A DNA stretch of 42,209 bases, from assembly GCF_002251835.1 (NCBI RefSeq), contig NZ_NOXV01000305.1, forward strand, positions 1 through 42,209, written 5' to 3'. This DNA comes from Flavobacterium cyanobacteriorum (GTDB lineage Bacteria > Bacteroidota > Bacteroidia > Flavobacteriales > Flavobacteriaceae). The notes below the pieces were generated by a model. The model made no database searches. It saw only the letters and a list, made by a program, of their open reading frames with translations, and was not told the origin of the DNA. The position numbers and the translations under genes are program-made. Positions 17,918 through 23,557 of this stretch are shown piece after piece (within the stretch, counting starts at the first letter, position 1; every line of letters starts with the position of its first letter).

Positions 17918-17947
17918 TTTTAGCGCTTTGTAAAATTATTACATTTG
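17918..17947 (+). promoter_or_regulatory. Candidate promoter of the threonine operon
   Basis: TACATTTG (17940-17947) fits TAnnTTTG, with TTTT at 17918-17921 as a weak -33 element at 18 bases. A start near 17954 would give a leader of about 45 bases before the threonine-rich leader peptide. The nnr gene is divergent from here. Confidence 0.55.
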
Positions 17948-17999
17948 TTACGATATGTATTACAAAAGCAACAAACATTTAACTCAGTTTTATACAAGC

Positions 18000-18080
18000 A
18001 TGGCCACGTTGCCGTGCAATGTTGCCTTTGCCCTTGCTTCTACAACTGCTACAACAACTACTACCCCGTTAGGGGTATAA
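18000..18080 (+). CDS. thrL: Threonine operon leader peptide, 26 residues
   Basis: ATG 18000 opens a 26-codon frame reading MATLPCNVAFALASTTATTTTTPLGV in two parts: a non-polar first half, then seven threonine codons in eight (ACA ACT GCT ACA ACA ACT ACT ACC). The stop is at 18078-18080. It ends 80 bases before thrA, the first gene of the threonine pathway operon. A run of the end-product's codons is the hallmark of ribosome-mediated attenuation. Isoleucine codons are absent, so the likely signal is threonyl-tRNA alone. The peptide itself probably has no other job. A short hairpin TACCCC/GGGGTA overlaps its last codons. Confidence 0.88.
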   Translation: MATLPCNVAFALASTTATTTTTPLGV

Positions 18081-18140
18081 TCATTTACATATCAGCCAAT
18101 AAAGGGATTATTTAATAATAATCAAAAAATAGTTGTTGTA
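18050..18140 (+). promoter_or_regulatory. Thr leader RNA switch: codon run complementary to a site before thrA
   Basis: TACAACAACTA (18050-18060), inside the threonine-codon run, is a perfect 11-base complement of TAGTTGTTGTA (18130-18140), which ends 20 bases before the thrA ATG. Between them are the hairpin TACCCC-GTTA-GGGGTA (18062-18077) and GATTATT-TAAT-AATAATC (18106-18123). ATAATC (18077-18082) could instead pair with GATTAT (18106-18111). No U-tract follows any stem, so classical termination is not evident. A stalled ribosome would block the long pairing and free the thrA upstream region. That direction of control is inferred. Confidence 0.6.
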
Positions 18141-18160
18141 TAACCAATCCAGTTACTATC

Positions 18161-20611
18161 ATGCACATAATCAAATTTGGCGGCACTTCGGTTGCCAACC
18201 CGCAAAATATACTGCAATGCATAAGCATAATTAAAAATAAAATCAATAACGGCCGTGTGGCGGTGGTAGTTTCCGCGCTTGGTGGAATAACCGACCTGCT
18301 ACTAAGTGCGGCACTTGATGCCTCGGCTAAAAAATTAAATTACAAAGAACTATATAACGAAATAGAAGTACGGCATGTTGACGCAGTTGCCGGCCTGATT
18401 CCTGAAAAGAACCAGCCTGAATCGCTGCAAAATGTAAAGCAGGAACTGGAGCATTTGCAAACCCTGCTTGACGGCTGTTACCTGCTTGGTGAGCTTTCTG
18501 AACGCACAAAAGACCTTATCCTTTCTTTTGGCGAGGTGCTTTCCTCCTACATTATGGCTGAAGCCCTAAAAGTACAGGGGGAGGACTGCCGGCTTGCCGA
18601 CTGCCGGGAACTCATAAGGACCAATAACCGGTTTGGCCGCGCCATTGTAAATTTTGAGATAACCAACCTGCATATTCAGCATTTCTTTGACAAGAACAGG
18701 AATACTGTTATAGTACTGCCGGGGTTCATAGCGCAGTCAGAAGACGGTCATGTTACCACACTGGGGCGGGGAGGATCTGATTATACCGCGGCTATTGTTG
18801 CTGCTGCGCTCGATGTGCCGCACCTTGAAATATGGACTGACGTAAGTGGCATTTATACCGCTAACCCCAAGCTGGTAAAACAGGCCAGGAGCATAAGCCA
18901 TATTACTTTTGAGGAAGCTATGGAGCTGTCTCATTTCGGGGCAAAAGTATTGTATCCACCTACTATCCAGCCTATTATTAATAAAAATATTACGCTTACC
19001 ATAAAAAATACCTTTGAGCCGGAGGCACCGGGCAGTATCATTACAAGGCAGGTGCCGGAAGAGAGCCGCAACCCCATTAAAGGCATCAGTAATATTGACG
19101 GTATAACACTTATTACGCTCGAAGGGCCGGGTATGGTGGGTGTATCGGGTTTTTCAAAACGCCTGTTCGAGGTTATTTCCAAAGAAAGCATCAATGTTAT
19201 CTTCATAACACAGGCATCTTCTGAGCATTCTATATGCTTTGGCATTTCTGATGCAGAAGCGCCAAAAGCAAAAGCGGCTATAGATGTGGAGTTTTTATTT
19301 GAGATACGCCAGCAAAAAATAAAGCCTGCCATAGCAGAGAACGGGCTTTCAATTATAGCCGTAGTAGGCGAAAACATGAAGAACCACCAGGGGCTCAGCG
19401 GCAGGATGTTCAGTACCCTGGGGCGCAATAACATCAATATAAGGGCTATTGCACAGGGTGCAAGTGAGCGTAATATTTCAGCCGTAATAGCAAGCAGGGA
19501 CGTTAAGAAAGCGCTGAACAGCCTGCATGAGGAATTTTTTGAGGAAAGTACTGTACAGCTCAACCTGTTTGTAATGGGTATTGGCAATGTGGGCGATAAA
19601 TTCCTGGAACAGGTGCAGCAGCAACGTAAATACCTTAAAGAGCACCTCAACATCAATGTAAGGGTTATAGGGCTCGCCAATTCACGTAAAATGTATTTTG
19701 ATGAGTATGGCATTGCCCTGAAAGACAGGAAGGCGCTCCTTGAAAATGGTGAACCATCAACACATACCGGATTTATAGGGGCTATAAAACGCTTTAACCT
19801 GCGTAACAGCATATTTATTGATAATACTGCCAGCAACGAAGTAGCCATGACCTATGGCAGCTACCTGAAACAAAGCATAGCCGTGGTAACCTGTAACAAG
19901 GTGGCCTGCTCATCAGCTTACAGCCACTATAGTGAACTAAAAAGCCTGTCAAGGCAGTATAGCGCGCCCTTCCTTTTTGAAACCAATGTAGGTGCCGGCC
20001 TGCCAATAATCGATACGCTGAAGAATCTTGTTGCTTCCGGCGACAGGATACGTAAAATACAGGCGGTGCTTTCCGGCAGCCTTAACTTTATTTTTAATAA
20101 CTTTAATGAATCGGTTTCTTTCCATGATGTAGTGAAACAGGCGCAGGAAGAAGGCTATACAGAACCCGATCCTAAGATAGACCTGAGCGGAGTTGACGTA
20201 AAACGAAAACTGGTAATACTAATCCGCGAAAGCGGATACAAAATGGAAATTGAAGATATTGAAAACCGCTCATTCCTGCCCCAAAAATGCCTTGATACGC
20301 AAACCGTTGAGGATTTCTTCAGGTCACTGCAGGACAATGCAACGCATTTTGGGGATCTTTATGCCCGGGCAAAAAGTAAAGGGTGCAGGCTGAAGTTTGT
20401 AGCTACTTTTGAAGAAGGCAACGCGCATGTAGGGCTGGAATTTATACCACAGGAGCACCCCTTTTATAACCTGGAGGGCAAAGATAATATTGTGCTGTTT
20501 TACACCGACAGGTACGCAGATCAGCCGCTTATAATTAAAGGTGCCGGTGCCGGTGCGGCAGTAACAGCTTCGGGCATTTTTGCAGATGTAATACGTATTG
20601 GCAATAAATAG
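18161..20611 (+). CDS. thrA: Bifunctional aspartokinase / homoserine dehydrogenase
   Basis: It phosphorylates aspartate (first step) and reduces aspartate semialdehyde to homoserine (third step), serving threonine, isoleucine and methionine synthesis. The 816 residues split into an aspartokinase (KFGGTSVANPQN at the start; TLGRGGSDYTAAIVA near 205), two ACT-type regulatory segments (about 310-460, including GMVGVSGFSKRLFEV and NHQGLSGRMFSTLGRNNINI) and homoserine dehydrogenase (about 468-816; nucleotide site FVMGIGNVG near 473, later VLSGSLNFIFNNFNE). The ACT region implies allosteric feedback, as in E. coli ThrA. It heads the operon behind the leader peptide, and thrB starts 2 bases after its stop. 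Confidence 0.96.
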   Translation: MHIIKFGGTSVANPQNILQCISIIKNKINNGRVAVVVSALGGITDLLLSAALDASAKKLNYKELYNEIEVRHVDAVAGLIPEKNQPESLQNVKQELEHLQTLLDGCYLLGELSERTKDLILSFGEVLSSYIMAEALKVQGEDCRLADCRELIRTNNRFGRAIVNFEITNLHIQHFFDKNRNTVIVLPGFIAQSEDGHVTTLGRGGSDYTAAIVAAALDVPHLEIWTDVSGIYTANPKLVKQARSISHITFEEAMELSHFGAKVLYPPTIQPIINKNITLTIKNTFEPEAPGSIITRQVPEESRNPIKGISNIDGITLITLEGPGMVGVSGFSKRLFEVISKESINVIFITQASSEHSICFGISDAEAPKAKAAIDVEFLFEIRQQKIKPAIAENGLSIIAVVGENMKNHQGLSGRMFSTLGRNNINIRAIAQGASERNISAVIASRDVKKALNSLHEEFFEESTVQLNLFVMGIGNVGDKFLEQVQQQRKYLKEHLNINVRVIGLANSRKMYFDEYGIALKDRKALLENGEPSTHTGFIGAIKRFNLRNSIFIDNTASNEVAMTYGSYLKQSIAVVTCNKVACSSAYSHYSELKSLSRQYSAPFLFETNVGAGLPIIDTLKNLVASGDRIRKIQAVLSGSLNFIFNNFNESVSFHDVVKQAQEEGYTEPDPKIDLSGVDVKRKLVILIRESGYKMEIEDIENRSFLPQKCLDTQTVEDFFRSLQDNATHFGDLYARAKSKGCRLKFVATFEEGNAHVGLEFIPQEHPFYNLEGKDNIVLFYTDRYADQPLIIKGAGAGAAVTASGIFADVIRIGNK

Positions 20612-20612
20612 T

Positions 20613-21530
20613 ATGGAAGTAAAGATTTTTTGCCCGGCCACTGTTGCCAACGTTTCCTGCGGGTTTGATGTGCTGGGCCTTTGCCTTGACACAGCAGGCG
20701 ACGAAATGCTGGTGGAACGTACCATGCAGCCGGGCGTAAGGATAAAAGAAATTACAGGTGCAAACCTGCCGCTTGACACAGCGCAGAATGTAGCGGGTGT
20801 GGCCGCGACAGCACTGGTGGAAAAACTCCATCCGCCCTATGGATTTGACATTACCATACACAAAAAAATAAAAGCAGGGAGCGGACTGGGCAGCAGTGCA
20901 GCCAGTGCAGCCGGAGCGGTATTCGCTGTAAATCATTTGGTGGGGAATCCGCTCACGCCTAAGGAACTGGTGCATTATGCCATGCAGGGTGAAAAACTTG
21001 CCAGCGGCGCTGCCCATGCCGATAACGTAGCCCCTGCCCTTTTAGGCGGATTTACACTGGTACGGAGTTATGAGCCACTGGATATTATAGAAATCCCGGC
21101 TCCCGAAAACCTGTATGTTGCCATTATACATCCGCATATTGAGGTAAGGACGAAAGATGCACGGGCAGTGCTGAAAGACAGAATTGACTTTAAAAAAGCC
21201 GTTATACAAACAGCTAACCTGGCAGGGCTTATCAGCGGTCTTTACACAGCTGATTTTGACCTTATAGGGCGCTCGCTCCACGATGTGCTGGTAGAGCCGC
21301 TCAGGGCGCATCTTATACCACATTTCAGTTTTATAAAGAAAGCCGCGCTTGATGCCGGCGCGCTGGGTGCCGGTATATCAGGCTCGGGGCCATCTGTTTT
21401 TGCGCTGGCTAAAGGTAACGAAGCCGCAGGGAAAGCCGCAGGCGCTATGGCACAGGTACTGGAAGGCACTGGCATTGATTATGAGATACATGTTTCTAAC
21501 ATAAATCCCGTAGGGATAAAAATAGTATGA
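20613..21530 (+). CDS. thrB: Homoserine kinase
   Basis: A GHMP-family kinase that makes O-phosphohomoserine with ATP in the cytosol. The 305-residue protein begins MEVKIFCPATVANVSCGFD. It has the phosphate-binding GSGLGSSAASAAG at about residues 89-101 and the C-terminal GAGISGSGPSVFAL near 257. ATG 20613 is preferred: it follows the thrA stop by one base and gives the family-typical start, whereas the longer reading starts inside thrA. Its last four bases (ATGA) hold the start of the next gene. Confidence 0.96.
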   Translation: MEVKIFCPATVANVSCGFDVLGLCLDTAGDEMLVERTMQPGVRIKEITGANLPLDTAQNVAGVAATALVEKLHPPYGFDITIHKKIKAGSGLGSSAASAAGAVFAVNHLVGNPLTPKELVHYAMQGEKLASGAAHADNVAPALLGGFTLVRSYEPLDIIEIPAPENLYVAIIHPHIEVRTKDARAVLKDRIDFKKAVIQTANLAGLISGLYTADFDLIGRSLHDVLVEPLRAHLIPHFSFIKKAALDAGALGAGISGSGPSVFALAKGNEAAGKAAGAMAQVLEGTGIDYEIHVSNINPVGIKIV

Positions 21531-22267
21531 AAAGAACACTATTAAAAATTATAACAATTGTTTTTATCGTACTATTCGCTTTTATATATATTTGGCTTGA
21601 AAGCTTTTACTATACGGATTTAACTTGTGGATGTAGCTCGGCATGCTCAAGTTTTTATATATCTAAAACTGATAAAATTATTGGTTATATTATAATTTTT
21701 TTATCCGTCATTGTTATTACTGTCAGCCTTTGGAAGTTCCGCAAAATTTCTCGTTGGTGGTCTATTTTAGGATTACTTCTACTAGGCACTGCAATATATG
21801 GTAATAGTTTGATGTTTTTTAACCCAAATATATGCGGTTCATCTCTTAATGAATCGTACTTGTACTTCTTTAGTAATAAGATTGGTGATTGGGCAAAAAC
21901 TGATTCAGAACACATTAACATGGACAGCCTGAAATTGCGAAAGCTTGATGGTAAATTTTTAGGATATTATTATCTAAATAATGATTTAATTATTTACAGG
22001 ATTGGTAAAAAGCCAATAACTCTTCATACAAATTTTTTATTTTGGAATATTTGTAAACAAGAAATTACAAAACATATATCTTATGGATTAGATTCTTACC
22101 ATCTGCCTGATAATAGTGAAGAAATGACAATACTTTTAGGTGGACAAGATATGCCTATTCAAGCCTTTATGCAGGAAGTAAACTACAATAACTTTAGTAA
22201 GGGGTTGAAGTACCAAAAACTTTTAAAGTTTGATGACGGAACAACACGCCTTTATATTTACAGATAA
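21527..22267 (+). CDS. Unknown membrane protein inserted between thrB and thrC
   Basis: I do not recognise this 246-residue protein. It has three N-terminal membrane segments (about residues 4-24, 48-67 and 76-94; for example TLLKIITIVFIVLFAFIYIW and KIIGYIIIFLSVIVITVSLW). They are interrupted by a cysteine-rich loop LTCGCSSACSSFY (about 33-45) and followed by a polar domain of about 150 residues. It overlaps thrB by four bases (ATGA) and ends 3 bases before thrC, so it must be read from the thr operon. Its base composition is clearly more AT-rich than thrA, thrB or thrC, a sign of later acquisition. A role in threonine synthesis is neither shown nor needed; the place may simply give expression. 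Confidence 0.8.
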   Translation: MKRTLLKIITIVFIVLFAFIYIWLESFYYTDLTCGCSSACSSFYISKTDKIIGYIIIFLSVIVITVSLWKFRKISRWWSILGLLLLGTAIYGNSLMFFNPNICGSSLNESYLYFFSNKIGDWAKTDSEHINMDSLKLRKLDGKFLGYYYLNNDLIIYRIGKKPITLHTNFLFWNICKQEITKHISYGLDSYHLPDNSEEMTILLGGQDMPIQAFMQEVNYNNFSKGLKYQKLLKFDDGTTRLYIYR

Positions 22268-22270
22268 CTC

Positions 22271-23557
22271 ATGAAATACTACAGCTTAAACAACCATAAC
22301 AGCAAAGCTTCCTTCAAAGAAGCTGCGGTTACAGGCATTGCACCTGATAAAGGCCTTTATTTCCCTGAAACAATTCCGCAGCTTGAATCAGGATTTATAA
22401 ACAATATTGAAGACTACAGCAACACTGAAATTGCCGTTAAAGCCATTACACCCTTCATCGGGGACGAGATACCCCCGGATAAACTGCGGGAAATTGTGGA
22501 GGAAACCCTGGCTTTCAGTTTCCCACTGGTACAGGTAGATGAGGATGTATATGCGCTTGAGCTTTTCCATGGCCCTACCCTTGCTTTTAAAGATGTAGGC
22601 GCAAGGTTTATGTCGCGCTGCCTCCGTTATTTTTTACAGGACGATAAGAAGGAAGTAACCGTTTTGGTAGCCACTTCGGGTGATACGGGAGGGGCGGTCG
22701 CCAGTGGTTTCCTTGGGGTTGAAGGTATAAAGGTTGTGATATTATACCCCTCAGGCAAAGTAAGCGATGTTCAGGAACGCCAGCTCACAACGCTTGGGCA
22801 GAACATAACAGCACTTGAGGTAAGCGGCACTTTTGACGATTGCCAGGACATGGTAAAGCAGGCTTTTCTTGATGATGAGCTGAAAGGGCTGAACCTTACT
22901 TCGGCCAATTCCATAAATATTGCCCGCTGGCTGCCGCAAATGTTCTACTACTTTTTTGCGTATAAAGAACTCCGAAAAAACGGCAGGCCTTTAGTAGTAT
23001 CAGTGCCAAGCGGCAATTTCGGGAATATCTGCGCCGGTATGATGGCAAAAAAAATGGGACTGCCCATCATGCATTTTATTGCCGCCACCAATGCCAATGA
23101 TACCGTTCCCCGGTATATGGAATCGCGCCGGTATGTCCCCATGCCTGCTGTTGAAACACTTTCAAATGCCATGGACGTAAGCAACCCCAGTAATTTTGTA
23201 CGCATATTGGAGCTTTTTGGCCCTGAAAGCCTTTCACAGGAATTGTCGTCCTATAGTTTCACGGATGAAGAAACCCTGAAAACCATTGCACAGCTGCACA
23301 AAAACCACCACTACCTGCCTGACCCGCACGGTGCGGTAGGGTACCTTGGCCTGAAGAAGTTCATGAAAACCAATCCCGGTGTTACAGGCGTGTTTTTAGA
23401 AACTGCACATCCTGTAAAGTTTGGCGAAAGTATTACAGGCAATTTCGGGATTAAAATTGCGCTGCCCGGGCAGATTAAAACCTTAATGTACCTGGAAAAA
23501 AAGAAAATTCAAATAGAAAATTATGAAGGTTTGAAAAAAGTTTTAGCCAAAATATAA
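22271..23557 (+). CDS. thrC: Threonine synthase
   Basis: The PLP enzyme that converts O-phosphohomoserine to threonine, the last pathway step. In the 428-residue protein the PLP lysine is in LAFKDVGARFMSR (about Lys107), with VATSGDTGGAVASGF for phosphate/PLP binding near 138, SANSINIARWLPQMFYYF near 214 and VPSGNFGNICAGMMAK near 246. The N-terminus MKYYSLNNHN is typical of the long bacterial form. It is the last gene of the operon, and an intrinsic terminator begins directly after its stop. Confidence 0.96.
   Translation: MKYYSLNNHNSKASFKEAAVTGIAPDKGLYFPETIPQLESGFINNIEDYSNTEIAVKAITPFIGDEIPPDKLREIVEETLAFSFPLVQVDEDVYALELFHGPTLAFKDVGARFMSRCLRYFLQDDKKEVTVLVATSGDTGGAVASGFLGVEGIKVVILYPSGKVSDVQERQLTTLGQNITALEVSGTFDDCQDMVKQAFLDDELKGLNLTSANSINIARWLPQMFYYFFAYKELRKNGRPLVVSVPSGNFGNICAGMMAKKMGLPIMHFIAATNANDTVPRYMESRRYVPMPAVETLSNAMDVSNPSNFVRILELFGPESLSQELSSYSFTDEETLKTIAQLHKNHHYLPDPHGAVGYLGLKKFMKTNPGVTGVFLETAHPVKFGESITGNFGIKIALPGQIKTLMYLEKKKIQIENYEGLKKVLAKI

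Follow-up and report, generated by a model that had tools for sequence, protein, structure and literature searches.

A threonine-rich leader peptide and a conserved RNA module before thrA in Flavobacterium suggest attenuation mostly without a standard intrinsic terminator

The threonine operon of Flavobacterium cyanobacteriorum is preceded by a short, threonine-rich open reading frame (ORF) that belongs to a conserved arrangement found before thrA across many related genomes. Comparison of 141 distinct leaders reveals that the ORF begins a few nucleotides after a promoter box, that its last threonine codon is built into a hairpin (P2), and that a conserved sequence motif follows this hairpin at a nearly fixed distance, with a second hairpin (P3) further downstream. 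Most of these leaders have no U-tract terminator. On balance, we lean towards reading the region as a leader-peptide attenuator that would sense threonine (and isoleucine) and control thrA-thrB-thrC, perhaps by way of Rho, with no standard intrinsic terminator.

The stretch that was analyzed, here called the window, comprises 42,209 nt of contig NZ_NOXV01000305.1. On its forward strand it carries thrA for an 816-aa bifunctional aspartate kinase/homoserine dehydrogenase I (18161–20611; Pfam; NF006959, 1036.5 bits), thrB for homoserine kinase (20598–21530; NF002288 and TIGR00191) and thrC for threonine synthase (22271–23557; PF14821 and PF00291). An ORF of 246 aa without a Pfam or NCBIfam match lies between thrB and thrC (21527–22267). 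An earlier note on this DNA had described a frame of 26 codons, starting at 18000 and containing seven threonine codons in eight, between a promoter and thrA. The codon run is as described: the codons at 18042–18065 of the forward strand read ACA ACT GCT ACA ACA ACT ACT ACC, that is, seven Thr codons and one Ala codon. A short ORF with this run indeed lies between thrA and a promoter, the latter being a consensus match only, namely TACATTTG at 17940–17947 (forward strand), which agrees with the Bacteroidetes -7 box TAnnTTTG. The frame is longer than had been stated, however, being open from an ATG at 17955 and thus spanning 41 codons (17955–18080, forward strand; MYYKSNKHLTQFYTSMATLPCNVAFALASTTATTTTTPLGV). 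We consider 17955 rather than 18000 the most likely start of the leader because the N-terminus shared by the four nearest relatives, L001–L004 (M...SNKYLT), resembles MYYKSNKHLT, because TACATTTG ends 7 nt before 17955, and because the ATG at 18000 sits within a GC-rich predicted hairpin, P1 (17998–18017, forward strand; GCATGGC/GCCGTGC in the minimum free energy fold). In F. psychrophilum, TAnnTTTG is reported to occupy positions -12 to -5 relative to the start site (PMC9723704), which places the predicted transcription start of the window's leader at about 17952 and leaves a 5' untranslated region (5'UTR) of about 3 nt.

To compare this region among relatives, we searched 160 loci, consisting of 80 thrA loci found by protein, 79 loci (L085–L163) picked from 150 genomes of the genus because their DNA resembles the leader of the window, among which three places occur twice, and the window. 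In 158 of them thrA could be located; L104 and L158, at which its start was not found, were dropped. At 145 of these 158 loci, thrA is preceded by an ORF rich in Thr and Ile whose end forms an ACC..GG hairpin, P2; without the duplicates L154, L161, L162 and L163 they amount to 141 distinct leaders, which are related and hence not independent of one another in the counts given here. Since L085–L163 were chosen by DNA similarity, we quote prevalence from the protein-selected loci only, where the Thr/Ile-rich leader with P2 was recognized at 67 of 80. This supports the earlier note as far as a threonine-rich leader peptide before thrA is concerned, which in the window is not accompanied by an intrinsic terminator. 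The 13 remaining loci include L005, where the contig stops within the leader, and L039, where a Thr run and a hairpin are visible by eye and the search criteria were missed. Three metagenome bins (L009, L020 and L078), titled Klebsiella pneumoniae, Bdellovibrio and Rhodobacteraceae, carry a flavobacteria-like thrA, which makes the bin titles or the bins themselves doubtful. In the 141 leaders, Thr accounts for 28% and Ile for 9% of residues, all four Thr codons are in use, and the last ten codons up to the ACC of P2 comprise 872 Thr and 151 Ile codons. A codon-position test for selection on the peptide gave a weak signal, with 1111 differences at the first, 1102 at the second and 1425 at the third position.

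The short distance from promoter to leader start is equally widespread. When the choice of leader start favored candidates close to a promoter box, the gap between box and start is 3–11 nt in 134 of the 141 distinct leaders and 17–18 nt in two, and five have no box. In a promoter-blind repeat, 123 of 141 leaders had their first in-frame ATG 3–11 nt downstream of TAnnTTTG, against a chance expectation of about 2.6%; the others have no box (8), a gap of 12–20 nt (5) or no ATG (5). If the box is positioned at -12 to -5 as in PMC9723704, leaders with a gap of 3–11 nt have predicted 5'UTRs of about 0–7 nt. Leaderless mRNAs are reported to make up only 5.5% in F. psychrophilum (PMC9723704), and the near-leaderless arrangement predicted here and kept among 141 thr leaders therefore appears both unusual and conserved.

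Within the leader ORF, hairpins in the P1 region exceed codon-shuffled controls (mean z 1.93; p ≤ 0.05 in 71 of 141 leaders). P2 lies at the end of the ORF, in the window at 18062–18077 of the forward strand (fold TACCCC-GTTA-GGGGTA), where the ACC of the hairpin serves as the last Thr codon and the hairpin is followed immediately by the stop codon (18078–18080). As a P2-like sequence was a selection criterion for leaders, its presence is no test, whereas the frame of the Thr codon and the position of the stop codon are. An in-frame Thr codon opens P2 in all 141 leaders, and the stop codon starts 6–27 nt after the first base of the ACC, most often at +6 and thus inside the hairpin (84 of 141). 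The outer pair of P2 is T-A in 92 leaders, A-T in 6, G-T in 1 and unpaired in 42, and so displays little covariation.

Downstream of P2, the leaders share a sequence motif with the consensus ACATATAATCC, represented in the window by ACATATCAGCC at 18087–18097 of the forward strand, which agrees at 9 of 11 positions when counted by eye. At least 9 of the 11 positions match in 108 of 141 leaders, compared with 0–4 of 141 in each of ten shuffled-spacer sets, the consensus having been read from the same sequences that were later scored. A cut-off of 7/11 proved too lax, as 71 of 141 shuffles pass it, and spacing is therefore quoted for matches of at least 9/11; an earlier automatic motif finder, which placed the motif in only 34 of 141 rows, has been superseded by this scoring. 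Among the 108 strong-motif leaders, P2 and the motif are 9–12 nt apart (sd 0.67), and P2 and thrA 77–211 nt (sd 36). A spacing that is fixed towards the motif and variable towards thrA suggests a decision point within the leader rather than at the start of thrA. A device that hides this start would be expected to be tied to thrA, whereas the module is tied to the leader ORF, and we infer that it probably acts on transcription. Hairpin-dependent pauses of RNA polymerase have a characteristic distance between the hairpin and the RNA end, and the 9–12 nt between P2 and the motif come close to it. This distance, together with the conservation of the motif as sequence and not as pairing, fits the idea that P2 and the motif form a pause that only synchronizes ribosome and polymerase, with the threonine response running via leader RNA stability or another route; such a pause does not by itself explain control, and we regard this account as improbable.

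Beyond the motif, P3 is an A+T-rich hairpin (18106–18123 of the forward strand in the window; GATTATT-TAAT-AATAATC) whose score exceeds mononucleotide shuffles (mean z 2.3; p ≤ 0.05 in 87 of 140). Its helix displays compensatory changes in 22 leaders, window included, that the author picked out of the 141 as alignable. Over six pairs, these leaders reach a covariation score of 0.491 against a shuffled mean of 0.277, and 81.1% of cells are paired against 69.4%, values that none of 500 shuffles attained in either case; slid along the alignment, the covariation score stays at or below 0.243. Two of five measures are less clear, as pair changes on both sides were matched in 94 and further pair types in 37 of 500 shuffles. 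P3 varies in length, which is why RNAalifold on mixed Flavobacterium leaders found only P2 and why the resulting model, R1, contains 3 pairs and consists mostly of sequence. Of 21 genomes, 9 contain a single strong match to R1, and all nine matches stand before thrA. The next best match has an E-value of 0.07, and in the window's own genome alone the next one has an E-value of 4.4. The possibility that the module also occurs elsewhere was therefore rejected for these 21 genomes, in which no strong match lies away from thrA and the other matches have E-values of at least 0.07.

These data bear on the mechanism offered in the earlier note, leader control of translation or Rho access, and in particular on its translational form, according to which the Thr run pairs with a site before thrA and closes its start, while a ribosome stalled for threonine frees it. 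The complementarity itself is real: TACAACAACTA at 18050–18060 is the exact reverse complement of TAGTTGTTGTA at 18130–18140 of the forward strand. None of 200 shuffles of the downstream stretch contains a perfect complement of at least 11 bases, and the match in this single sequence thus exceeds what composition provides; the duplex has a p-value of 0.005, and the leader RNA as a whole (17957–18190) is more stable than shuffles (z -3.0; 2 of 200 equally good). Among 62 leaders tested for the same pairing (L017 and L053 left out), however, p ≤ 0.05 was reached in 4 by duplex energy, in line with chance, and in 2 by the longest perfect complement. The respective medians are 0.46 and 0.855, which makes the window an outlier, and L001, the closest locus of the protein search (thrA 77% identical), has a longest complement of 5 and a duplex p-value of 0.07. 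The 11-base pairing was accordingly rejected as a general mechanism. The opening of the start did not hold up either. The partner site lies 20–30 nt before the start codon, and in folding of the 141 leaders the mean unpaired probability at the thrA start was 0.612 with the Thr run free and 0.624 with it blocked. Blocking the run improved accessibility by more than 0.1 in 7 of 141 leaders and lowered it in the window from 0.716 to 0.616, and sequestration of the thrA start was rejected as well. Given also the widely variable distance from P2 to thrA, translational control of this kind seems very unlikely. The 11-base match is probably private to the window's genome and without the proposed role; the stretch 18130–18140 has both the Thr run and the motif as potential partners, an arrangement that is not conserved.

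The statement that no U-tract terminator is present, by contrast, was borne out: between 17700 and 18400, no terminator-like site was found on the forward strand (two are on the reverse strand). Across the 141 leaders, a test for terminators with at least 3 G-C pairs was passed by 19, of which 17 pass at P2, and failed by 122. A laxer test with at least 2 G-C pairs was passed by 33, compared with 1–4 in shuffles; nine of the 33 are from Winogradskyella, where P3 (GTCTA/TAGAC) is followed by the T-rich tail ATTTTATTC. Neither test was passed by 108 of the 141 leaders, window included. Weak terminator-like sites are hence commoner than chance in a minority of lineages.

Classical attenuators of the same genus served as controls. 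In six Flavobacterium genomes, strong hairpin and U-tract terminators, judged by the test with at least 3 G-C pairs, are present in six of six his leaders (L206–L211), located by their His codons, and in six of six ilv leaders (L199–L204), located by their hairpin, with the second ilvD of one genome (L205) left out. The his leader peptides follow the pattern LHHHH[SF]H[YN]CSQAMC (for example MLSIQLHHHHSHYCSQAMC), and the ilv leaders are rich in Ile, Val and Leu. A first search for near-leaderless leaders of his and ilv gave none, and the leaders described here were located through codon runs or hairpins; in the nine his and ilv leaders checked the -7 box stands 20–36 nt before the start. Five of the six ilv leaders have ATATAAT at or shortly after the stop codon, which by eye is reminiscent of the thr motif. 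Judging from these leaders, the genus is equipped with classical attenuation and mostly appears not to use it for thr. In the window's own genome (G000, 99.89% complete), neither hisG nor ilvD gave a match, while the control genomes match and each of the two genes is found in 6 of 7 other genomes of the genus; on the basis of these searches, the organism may require histidine and branched-chain amino acids.

Sampling beyond the genus points to a variety of designs. In a class-wide draw of 60 genomes, we inspected the regions upstream of 14 thrA-like loci (L212–L225), one of which (L224) gave no start. The module is present at L215, from another family (gap 9 nt), and at L216, from a third family (gap 18 nt). 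At L222, again from another family, a Thr/Ile leader (MYNSTIIITIIITTGRNLAEE) with a classical terminator lies some 170 nt before thrA. A Thr-rich ORF lacking the module was seen at L221, the short ORFs at L219 and L223 are of unclear kind, and no such leader was seen at the remaining loci of the 14. Within the class, thr control thus appears to differ in design between a leader with a terminator, as at L222, and the mostly terminator-less module.

The leader at L222, the Winogradskyella tails and the excess of sites over shuffles in the two terminator tests could all be explained if control of thrA were attenuation with P2 (through a T-rich tail) or P3 as a weak intrinsic terminator assisted by NusA, NusG or another factor. 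The large majority of thr leaders that fail both tests and the strong terminators in 12 of 12 his and ilv leaders speak against this explanation, as does the lack of any alternative helix with support, and we consider it rather unlikely. Two candidate helices were examined and rejected, although both looked promising by eye in some species: an antiterminator formed by the 3' arm of P2 and the motif (p ≤ 0.05 in 6 of 141) and a terminator stem formed by the motif and the stretch after P3 (p ≤ 0.05 in 6 of 68). In the main Flavobacterium group, a stretch rich in TTGG(A/G)T, such as TTGGATACATAA, is well conserved after P3, and its pairing with the motif has no overall support.

We therefore return to an attenuator without a standard terminator and consider how it might operate. 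The leader ORF is predicted to start at most a few nucleotides from the 5' end of the RNA, which would let a ribosome load at once as the RNA leaves RNA polymerase. When charged tRNA-Thr is scarce, this ribosome would wait on the Thr run. Since the end of the run forms part of P2, a ribosome held up at any of the final few Thr codons would, given the size of its footprint and a geometry otherwise read from the sequence, cover the 5' arm of P2, keep the hairpin open and allow the polymerase to proceed into thrA. With ample threonine, the ribosome would reach the stop codon in or beside P2 and leave, P2 would form behind the polymerase, and the polymerase would stop or be terminated around the motif and P3, before thrA. 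Because most leaders have no standard intrinsic terminator, Rho would be the most likely terminator. A gene for Rho is present in the window's genome (L241, G000:C241:6840-8660); its open frame of 618 aa is longer than the 415-position model. The leader ORFs have a median C/G ratio of 2.0, and a ratio of 2 is reached by 1.1% of 1440 thrA windows; this imbalance was not used as a signal for a Rho site, since Thr codons alone explain much of the high C/G. In the absence of both a standard terminator and a supported helix exchange, the simplest reading would be that P2 is kept open directly by the ribosome and that transcription is stopped ahead of thrA either by P2 and the motif together or by Rho. 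A bolder version, which we put forward as speculative, is that these leaders constitute a separate class of attenuators without helix exchange, in which a near-leaderless ORF loads the ribosome, the last regulatory codon lies in a hairpin held open by that ribosome, and the hairpin with a ACATATAATCC-like motif 9–12 nt downstream forms a sequence-specific pause or termination point for the Bacteroidota RNA polymerase, with Rho or NusG.

The closest known relative in function is the thr operon attenuator of E. coli, thrL, which we take to be the Rfam family Thr_leader (RF00506). In the window, only four chance-level matches to Rfam families were obtained, all of them far below the respective gathering scores, which no family reached. 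As in E. coli, a Thr/Ile-rich leader peptide precedes a bifunctional thrA and would sense charged tRNA. Unlike thrL, the flavobacterial leaders mostly have no intrinsic terminator and no supported antiterminator, their ORF is predicted to be near-leaderless, and the last Thr codon is built into P2. Because the thr leader departs from classical attenuators in its terminator and matches no Rfam family, we set it apart from them as a variant. With the his and ilv attenuators of the same genus it has in common a leader peptide in which the regulating amino acid occurs in runs, and it differs from them in the distance between box and start and in the terminator. Leaderless leader ORFs are reportedly also found among mycobacterial poly-Cys ORFs. 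In Sinorhizobium meliloti, trpL is a leaderless leader ORF and is described in terms of trp transcription attenuation (PMC7298713). Both resemble the thr leader in having an ORF at the RNA 5' end, which for thr is a prediction, and both belong to other phyla and involve other amino acids. Rho-dependent control through upstream ORFs is known from pyrBI and tnaC, among others. It has also been described for E. coli topAI (PMC12121999), where, as proposed for the thr leader, whether transcription continues depends on where a ribosome stands on a short ORF; the signal and the RNA anatomy differ, and a role for Rho at the thr leader is hypothetical.

Parts of this picture have been anticipated. Leader-peptide attenuation in Flavobacterium is already suspected, as strong clues for it upstream of amino-acid operons are reported for F. 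psychrophilum (PMC9723704), and leaderless leader ORFs are known from other phyla (PMC7298713). The passages of PMC9723704 on this point name no operon, and neither 'thrA' nor 'threonine' occurs in its main part, while its supplements may list thr. None of the titles and abstracts that came up in our literature search dealt with a Bacteroidota thr leader, which a 2010 comparative study by Lopatovskaya et al. may cover, and the combination of a near-leaderless Thr leader with P2, the motif and P3 was not found in the literature searched.

A single genus thus seems to combine textbook attenuation of his and ilv with a second design for thr, a conserved, near-leaderless and mostly terminator-less module. 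A search for leader attenuators that requires an intrinsic terminator would miss most of the thr leaders found here. To our knowledge, Bacteroidota translate without Shine-Dalgarno sequences, and the coupling of ribosome and polymerase in this phylum has been little studied. The comparison of thr with his and ilv would offer a natural contrast for termination, pausing and coupling in the phylum, for which the thr module is a short, conserved and mutable test object.
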